NCBI RefSeq assembly: GCF_000001735.4
Contig: NC_003070.9
Coordinates: 992,001 to 1,056,000 of the forward strand
Length of the DNA stretch: 64,000 nucleotides
Direction: 5' to 3'
Origin: Arabidopsis thaliana
Taxonomy: Eukaryota > Streptophyta > Magnoliopsida > Brassicales > Brassicaceae
A program made the translations under genes and the position numbers. Positions 16,119 to 17,541 of the stretch are shown piece after piece (the first letter of the stretch is position 1; every line of letters begins with the position of its first letter). The notes beneath the pieces were generated by a model. The model did no database searches and was not told the origin of the DNA. It was given only the letters and a program-made list of their open reading frames with translations.

Positions 16119-16584
16119 AACCTGACAAACAAGAAAGTCATTATTATACGTACAATCCAAAAGAACAAACAGACAGATAATCGTAAGAGAATCTGCGTAA
16201 AGATACATTACAATGTTCCATATATACTTTATATAGTTTATTTTGTATATGTAAAACAGTTATAGAAGCCGAAATTTCTTCATCATTGGCAGATGACGCA
16301 GACTCAAAGTACACTTTTGTTGGTAAACAAATTACTACTTCGATCTATCTGTAATGAAAAAAAATATAACAAATTGTTTACTGGACGGTTATTATTTAAC
16401 CGCAAAAAACTAACGGGGGCAATTTCGACTTTTCGGGATAGAGATTAAAGGCTAGGGTTTTGACCAGCCGCGTGCTATTTAATCATCTTCTTCTTTCCGT
16501 TGTTTCTTACAATTATCGATCTTTAGATTAGGGTTCTTTTTAGACGTGTAGTGTTTTATACTTTTTATATATATATATATCTAG
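16119..16584 (+). promoter_or_regulatory. CKI1 3' UTR followed by a telo-box promoter for the noncoding RNA
   Basis: After the CKI1 stop comes 3' UTR sequence. From 16380 a promoter-like segment follows: AAAGGCTAGGGTTTTG at 16446-16461 and GATTAGGGTTC at 16525-16535 both contain telo-box-type cores (TAGGGTTT or close). A TATATATATAT tract at 16566-16580 sits just upstream of the first hairpin. Telo boxes are the classic promoter element of plant snoRNA and ribosome-biogenesis genes. This is an inference; no transcript data were available. Confidence 0.45.
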
Positions 16585-16735
16585 TTATGGTTCGCAGGAG
16601 CCTCCCGGGCTAGTCTGATAACTAAGGTACTTGAGGAACTAAGCCCCAAAGCTCCTGCTAGATTATTTTTGCCGTTTGTGTTGCAGATTTGCCTTATTCC
16701 TTAGGCTTTTCTGTGTCAAAAAAGCGGCTATATCT
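16585..16735 (+). ncRNA. H/ACA-box snoRNA candidate (predicted 18S helix-31 pseudouridylation guide)
   Basis: There are two hairpins with internal loops, as in an H/ACA snoRNA. In the 5' hairpin, lower stem GCAGGAGC (16594-16601) pairs with GCTCCTGC (16651-16658), and upper stem GGGCTAGT (16607-16614) pairs with ACTAAGCCC (16638-16646) with one bulged A. The hinge AGATTA at 16660-16665 fits ANANNA. In the 3' hairpin, GCCG (16671-16674) pairs with CGGC (16725-16728), GCAGA (16683-16687) with TCTGT (16710-16714), and GCCT (16691-16694) with AGGC (16703-16706). An ATA box lies at 16730-16732. From upper stem to box the distance is 13-14 nt (5' hairpin) and 15 nt (3' hairpin), against the known 14-16 rule. 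The 3' pocket arms TTTGTGTT and GTCAAA are complementary to 18S rRNA UUUGAC-U-C-AACAC. That uridine is the m1acp3-pseudouridine site of yeast and human. Ends are approximate. Confidence 0.78.
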
Positions 16736-17541
16736 CTCTTTTCTGTGTATGTTTTGCTTTGAGCTGTGTTTGTTGATGGTATCGATTTGGTATCAACGTT
16801 TGTTTATGTGGCAATGATTATAAACTTACCCGCGCTTCTGAGATTATTCAATGAAGCAGATACGGTAAATACATGGTTGAATTTCTTAATATGAGCCAAA
16901 GTTTTGTTTTTTTTTATATGGGTTTCTGTGTTTTGATTGGCTGGGATGATGAATTGTAACAGCTTGATACGCCAGTTCTGCTTCAGATAATTCTTGATCG
17001 AAAAAGCTGTATTCTTATCCGAGCCTTTCATTGCTATTTTGTCTTTCTTCTGAGTTATTATTTCTTGGGAATGTCGATGAGGATCTAATCCAATCTTACG
17101 AGGTGCAGTGGAGCTGAGACCTTGTTTTACAGGGAGAACCCCTTGGCAGAAGCTGCAATTTCTTTGACTTCAATGGATTTTACTGAGACTTTCTCATTCA
17201 TTTATCGTTTTTATTGAAATCTATTTGAGTTTAAACTATACACTTGCACTTGTATCTTAGTGCTTGTAGTCTGAAAAAACTCATAAATTCTCAGTGTTCT
17301 CATCAGCTTCCGTCTCCTTAACCATGAGACTTGAGTTAAACAAGATCACTACATTATTCTCTTTCAATTTCACATTATCTTTTTGTTTTCTTGTTTTGAG
17401 TTTATATTTCGGACTAAAGAGTATGTTTTGCCCGTATTTATGAGGTTGGATATGGATATTAAACAACAAGTCTATCCGTTCCAACAACGCTTTTCATAGA
17501 GTCATTTCGTTGCTACAAGTTATTGGATGAGAAAGGGGCTG
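16736..17541. other. Noncoding stretch after the snoRNA candidate
   Basis: No coding frame is supported. Sequence texture (T-rich, with many GTTTTG/TTTCTG words) looks transcribed, and it may be the 3' extension of the snoRNA precursor on the plus strand or the 3' UTR of the minus-strand 3AT1 gene near 17281-17541. A weak inverted repeat, TGCAG/CTGCA (17104-17108 and 17153-17157), encloses further short complementary segments but lacks convincing H or ACA boxes. Confidence 0.4.

Follow-up and report, generated by a model that had tools for sequence, protein, structure and literature searches.

The closest described systems to the locus reported here are the box H/ACA guides of the helix-31 uridine of 18S rRNA in yeast and humans. 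In yeast, snR35 guides position 1191, where H/ACA pseudouridylation is the first step toward m1acp3-pseudouridine (PMC7694415), and in humans SNORA13 guides position 1248 (PMC12975130); the later steps in both organisms involve Nep1/Emg1 and Tsr3 (PMC7694415, PMC12975130). The equivalent Arabidopsis base, U1192, is a predicted pseudouridine, and whether it is hypermodified in plants was left open in 2021 (PMC8351944). m1acp3-pseudouridine has been placed at position 1196 in wheat (PMC10743738) and at position 1194 in tobacco, where it contacts the P-site tRNA (PMC10281867); the tobacco base is presumably the same as the target discussed below. We found no paper that names the plant guide of U1192, the supplementary tables likeliest to name it lying outside the search; snR35 is absent from the main text of PMC8351944, and snoR134, 1192 and AT1G03 have no match in PMC7464842. 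Very probably, U1192 has already been tied to some snoRNA in an existing database.

Here we analyze a 64,000-nucleotide stretch of Arabidopsis thaliana DNA (the window) in which one locus encodes snoR134, an already-known RNA family, and we propose that the 3' pocket of this RNA guides U1192 and its 5' pocket a second 18S uridine at about U1104. We hold this explanation as a whole with high confidence. An Rfam cmscan matches the locus to RF01430 over the entire model (positions 1-149 of 149) with 139 bits (E 1.1e-29), above the curated gathering score of 40 that sets membership, and a rerun at lax thresholds returned the same five matches. The whole-RNA fold has a z score of -3.54, with none of 200 shuffles as good. 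The RNA is laid out as an H/ACA snoRNA, with two hairpins and a box after each, the 3' box being the variant ATA and not ACA:

16592..16735, plus strand: box H/ACA snoRNA snoR134 (RF01430), two hairpins, from cmscan and the whole-RNA fold
16660..16665, plus strand: box H, AGATTA (ANANNA), from the sequence
16730..16732, plus strand: ACA-type box, variant ATA, followed by TCT, the final three bases of the family match

At the position of the 3' box, the RF01430 consensus reads UAcAUcu. Because the family is known and U1192 is a listed predicted site, novelty is low. The original prediction, that the locus encodes a plant counterpart of snR35/ACA13, was silent on the known family and on the 18S match of the 5' pocket, which is even stronger than the one it described.

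Pairing was scored against NZ_CP050525.1 (hereafter L001), a 1764-base record filed as an Acinetobacter baumannii complete plasmid and recovered from a plasmid collection as the one match to an 18S query. Rfam identifies L001 as a eukaryotic SSU rRNA, nearly full length (model positions 14-1797 of 1831) and cut at both ends. Its end letters are what we take to be a sequencing adapter, and for that reason we regard the record as a contaminant, presumably plant 18S rRNA. The 18S sequence named in the original prediction proved to be real: AATTTGACTCAACACGGGG occurs in L001 and in the printed partial 18S of Chlamydomonas, which, in the excerpt available, has both target sites discussed here but differs at a single base among those that would pair with the 5' pocket (PMC6245355). 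Since the Rfam match starts at model position 14, the 5' end of L001 would lack 13 bases, and adding these to U1183 of L001, the 3' pocket target, gives 1196, the number of the wheat m1acp3-pseudouridine.

The 3' hairpin, which carries the pocket of the original prediction, consists of the following features:

16671..16728, plus strand: 3' hairpin, fold of -23.4 kcal/mol, z -5.08, 0 of 200 shuffles as good
16678..16682, plus strand: left guide arm GTGTT of the 3' pocket, pairs with 18S AACAC, 5 Watson-Crick pairs
16715..16720, plus strand: right guide arm GTCAAA of the 3' pocket, pairs with 18S UUUGAC, 6 Watson-Crick pairs

The hairpin is closed by GCCGTTT (16671-16677) pairing with AAGCGGC (16722-16728), and the arms lie where they had been placed, flanking the upper stem GCAGA/TCTGT. 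As in a pocket of the snR35/SNORA13 type, they can pair with the 18S bases before and after the helix-31 uridine and leave this U and the next base unpaired; the predicted five and six Watson-Crick pairs with UUUGAC-U-C-AACAC were counted in L001. The additional claim of G-U wobbles extending outward stands for the left side, which has three, and fails for the right, where the next two positions are mismatched. Among the scored uridines of L001, namely those at least about 12 bases from either end, the best site in the canonical bipartite register is U1183 with a score of 12.5 (left, 5 Watson-Crick and 3 G-U; right, 6 Watson-Crick), and the runner-up reaches 6.5, so that aligning the arms to this presumed plant 18S selects the expected base. 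Because the three G-U pairs would form at the expense of the lower stem, 11 Watson-Crick pairs are the fair count. The unpaired U corresponds, as had been proposed, to yeast 1191 and human 1248, and in Arabidopsis it is U1192 (excerpt of PMC8351944).

A site scoring at least 12.5 arose anywhere in 2 of 1000 dinucleotide-shuffled 18S sequences, and 12 of 5000 arm-permuted pockets reached 12.5 at some position of the real 18S. With the cutoff relaxed to a score of 8, just 3 of the 5000 permuted pockets had U1183 as their best site. From these nulls, the 3' match is an event of roughly 0.2% anywhere in 18S and rarer at a base named in advance. At the 3' site, the arms of the RF01430 consensus retain every one of the 11 Watson-Crick pairs. 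The Rfam consensus structure pairs a few of the guide-arm bases with each other, and the unbound minimum-energy fold of the 3' hairpin has two base pairs across the pocket, so conservation of the arms is in itself no proof of guiding.

The second pocket is formed by the 5' hairpin:

16594..16658, plus strand: 5' hairpin, fold of -26.1 kcal/mol, z -2.61, 2 of 200 shuffles as good
16601..16608, plus strand: left arm CCTCCCGG of the 5' pocket, pairs with 18S CCGGGGGG on the 3' side of the predicted U, 7 Watson-Crick pairs and 1 G-U
16645..16651, plus strand: right arm CCCAAAG of the 5' pocket, pairs with 18S CUUUGGG on the 5' side of the predicted U, 7 Watson-Crick pairs

Its lower stem is 8 bp long (GCAGGAGC/GCTCCTGC), and its predicted target is CUUUGGG-U-U-CCGGGGGG, centered on U1095 of L001, with 14 Watson-Crick pairs and one G-U in total. 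The left arm takes in two upper-stem nucleotides and one lower-stem nucleotide that are paired in the unbound fold, and pairing at U1095 requires two upper-stem pairs to be opened. In the matching register, U1095 is the best site of the 5' pocket with 14.5 and the runner-up scores 8; the other three registers (0, 1 and 3) find weak 18S sites, with a best bipartite score of 6, so that one of four registers yields a match. H/ACA guide pockets lie about 14-16 nt before their box. The first base of the 5' right arm is 15 nt from the H box in the matching register (13-16 over the four registers), and that of the 3' right arm is likewise 15 nt from the ATA box. No shuffled 18S among 1000 reached 14.5, taking the best of four registers, nor did any of 3000 permuted pockets, scored in the matching register. 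Before the first mismatch, the RF01430 consensus keeps 5 Watson-Crick pairs on the right of this site and 7 Watson-Crick pairs plus 1 G-U on the left.

In L001, 88 nt separate U1095 from U1183 downstream of it; U1095 would therefore be about U1104 of Arabidopsis, if no insertion or deletion intervenes. We know of no pseudouridine at the matching base of yeast or human 18S. A literature word search that included U1104 showed no paper with this term among the matches listed. Excerpts of the ribosome papers on tobacco, wheat and tomato hold no modification at its equivalent, the matches in them being references. A second 18S pseudouridine at about U1104 may be specific to plants. With 18S uridines matched by both pockets, snoR134 is a predicted double guide.

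The exact 18S motif had no match in viral contigs, and plant 25S rRNA had none in plasmids, phages, viral contigs or a first genome-contig scan, so that a better target in 25S is conceivable. As a rough control only, both strands were scored at ten loci in bacterial assemblies that bear a eukaryotic LSU motif (L002-L011) and came from a second genome-contig scan. The 3' pocket scores at least 12 at five of these (L005, L009, L011, L007 and L010) and at most 9.5 on the other strands; at L005, L009 and L011 the match falls on the exact 18S helix-31 motif. The 5' pocket scores 12.5-14 at L007, L008, L009 and L011, in the register of the U1095 match, and, in a different register, 13.5 within an LSU stretch of L006; on all other strands it scores at most 10. 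Having a eukaryotic 25S/28S motif although they belong to bacterial assemblies, one of them under the name Borreliella garinii, the ten contigs are probable contamination in reference genomes. At L007, 970 bases rather than 88 separate the best match of one pocket from that of the other, a distance suggestive of an insertion, for instance an intron in the rDNA.

Rfam places snoR134 at the head of a row of five snoRNA genes on the same strand of the window:

16453..16460, minus strand: Telo-box AAACCCTA, exact match, upstream of snoR134
16809..16898, plus strand: snoU36a, box C/D, next after snoR134 (RF01302, 101.7 bits)
16935..17029, plus strand: snoZ223, box C/D (RF00135, 95.8 bits)
17073..17189, plus strand: snoZ278, box C/D (RF00201, 47 bits against a gathering score of 36)
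17249..17356, plus strand: snoR97, box H/ACA (RF01215, 89 bits)

The five genes form one cluster and are probably transcribed together. A Telo-box with Site II elements is typical of plant snoRNA cluster promoters (excerpt of PMC4660826, in which the Telo-box motif is defined). The window contains 12 Telo-boxes on its two strands (4 + 8), and the Site II element TGGGCY does not occur between 15950 and 16600. Four of the five neighboring reading frames fall in a Pfam family (Transferase, PF02458; bZIP; phytochelatin synthase; GMC oxidoreductase). Among the ten LSU-bearing contigs, the guide complement of Z223 occurs in five (L002, L005, L007, L009 and L010); one of the U36a complements is present in two of the ten and the other in none. 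We considered the lncCOBRA snoRNA-containing lncRNAs as a host and rejected them: the loci named in the excerpt of PMC9175010 are AT1G05917, AT1G05907 and AT3G03445/03425/03415, and AT1G03 has no match in that paper. In the excerpt of a cotton paper, snoR134 comes up solely in connection with DNA methylation.

We propose the following route from this locus to the ribosome. Once expressed, snoR134 would be bound by H/ACA proteins of the dyskerin/NAP57 type, and its 3' pocket would hold UUUGAC-U-C-AACAC of 18S rRNA so that the unpaired U1192 is converted to pseudouridine. This would be the first step toward m1acp3-pseudouridine beside the P site, which enzymes of the Nep1/Emg1 and Tsr3 types may then complete in plants as well. 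The 5' pocket would act likewise on the second 18S uridine, 88 nt upstream at about U1104. The further proposal, that one and the same snoRNP makes both pseudouridines and that the P-site modification is thereby coupled to the one near U1104 through a single RNA, is one for which we see the balance as even.

Other readings of the same pairings attach different roles to the two hairpins. It is conceivable, though we think it unlikely, that the 3' pocket alone is a guide and that the 5' hairpin has a structural role or targets 25S or another RNA, the pairing at U1104 being coincidental. Such coincidence would fit the need to open two upper-stem pairs, the lack of the term U1104 among the matches listed in the literature word search, and the score of 13.5 that the LSU stretch of L006 attains in another register; that stretch, however, precedes the conserved LSU motif by about 177 nt and falls in a part in which, judged by eye, the ten loci do not resemble one another. 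It is harder to square with nulls in which neither 1000 shuffled 18S sequences nor 3000 permuted pockets reach 14.5, with an H-box distance of 15 nt in exactly the U1104 register, equal to the box distance of the 3' hairpin, and with a consensus of RF01430 that largely retains the pairing. That the 3' match should itself be due to chance, snoR134 having a different target, we regard as extremely improbable. Two of 1000 shuffled 18S sequences do hold an equally good site somewhere, but the uridine matched here is known to be modified in tobacco, wheat, yeast and human, the register and box spacing are right, and the family consensus keeps the pairs.

Alternatively, U1192 could be served mainly by another, unlinked guide, with the 3' pocket of snoR134 redundant or chiefly an aid to rRNA folding. 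Plant snoRNAs are often multicopy, which counts toward this possibility. In the excerpts at hand, U1192 is listed as a predicted site with its guide unnamed, some predicted guides are said to act perhaps in processing or folding (PMC8351944), and an Arabidopsis lncRNA that contains a pair of C/D snoRNA domains is reported not to have enriched rRNA (PMC9175010). We nevertheless judge a principal role for an unlinked guide to be distinctly unlikely, given that the 3' pocket pairs at 11 of 11 positions with the right spacing, that the RF01430 consensus has kept this pairing, and that the arms occur once in the window, with no second copy. Guiding of U1192 by the 3' pocket of snoR134 is thus the reading we prefer, and we consider the assignment sound at the level of sequence on account of the family match, the register, the 11 pairs, the spacing of 15 nt, the equivalence to U1192 and the modification of this base in plants.

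With snoR134 as the candidate guide of U1192, a plant P-site modification becomes directly testable through the removal of one locus. The 5' pocket provides a second prediction that can be checked, and the double-guide reading is likely the added value of this analysis. Overall, we offer a useful assignment inside a well-known system and not a new kind of system.

Relative to the RF01430 family, the locus shares the full-length match, the hairpins and the guide arms; it differs from the consensus in having ATA for ACA and in small changes that fall mostly outside the guide-paired bases, and is otherwise a plain member. Relative to yeast snR35, snoR134 would share the target uridine (excerpt of PMC7694415), and the likeness supported here is one of function. 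Similarly, human SNORA13/ACA13 shares this target, but it resides in the intron of a lncRNA (excerpt of PMC12975130), whereas snoR134 heads five snoRNAs with a Telo-box upstream. The pairings thus bear out the proposed counterpart of snR35/ACA13 as a functional equivalent only, and in plants snoR134 very probably takes the part that this guide plays in yeast and humans.
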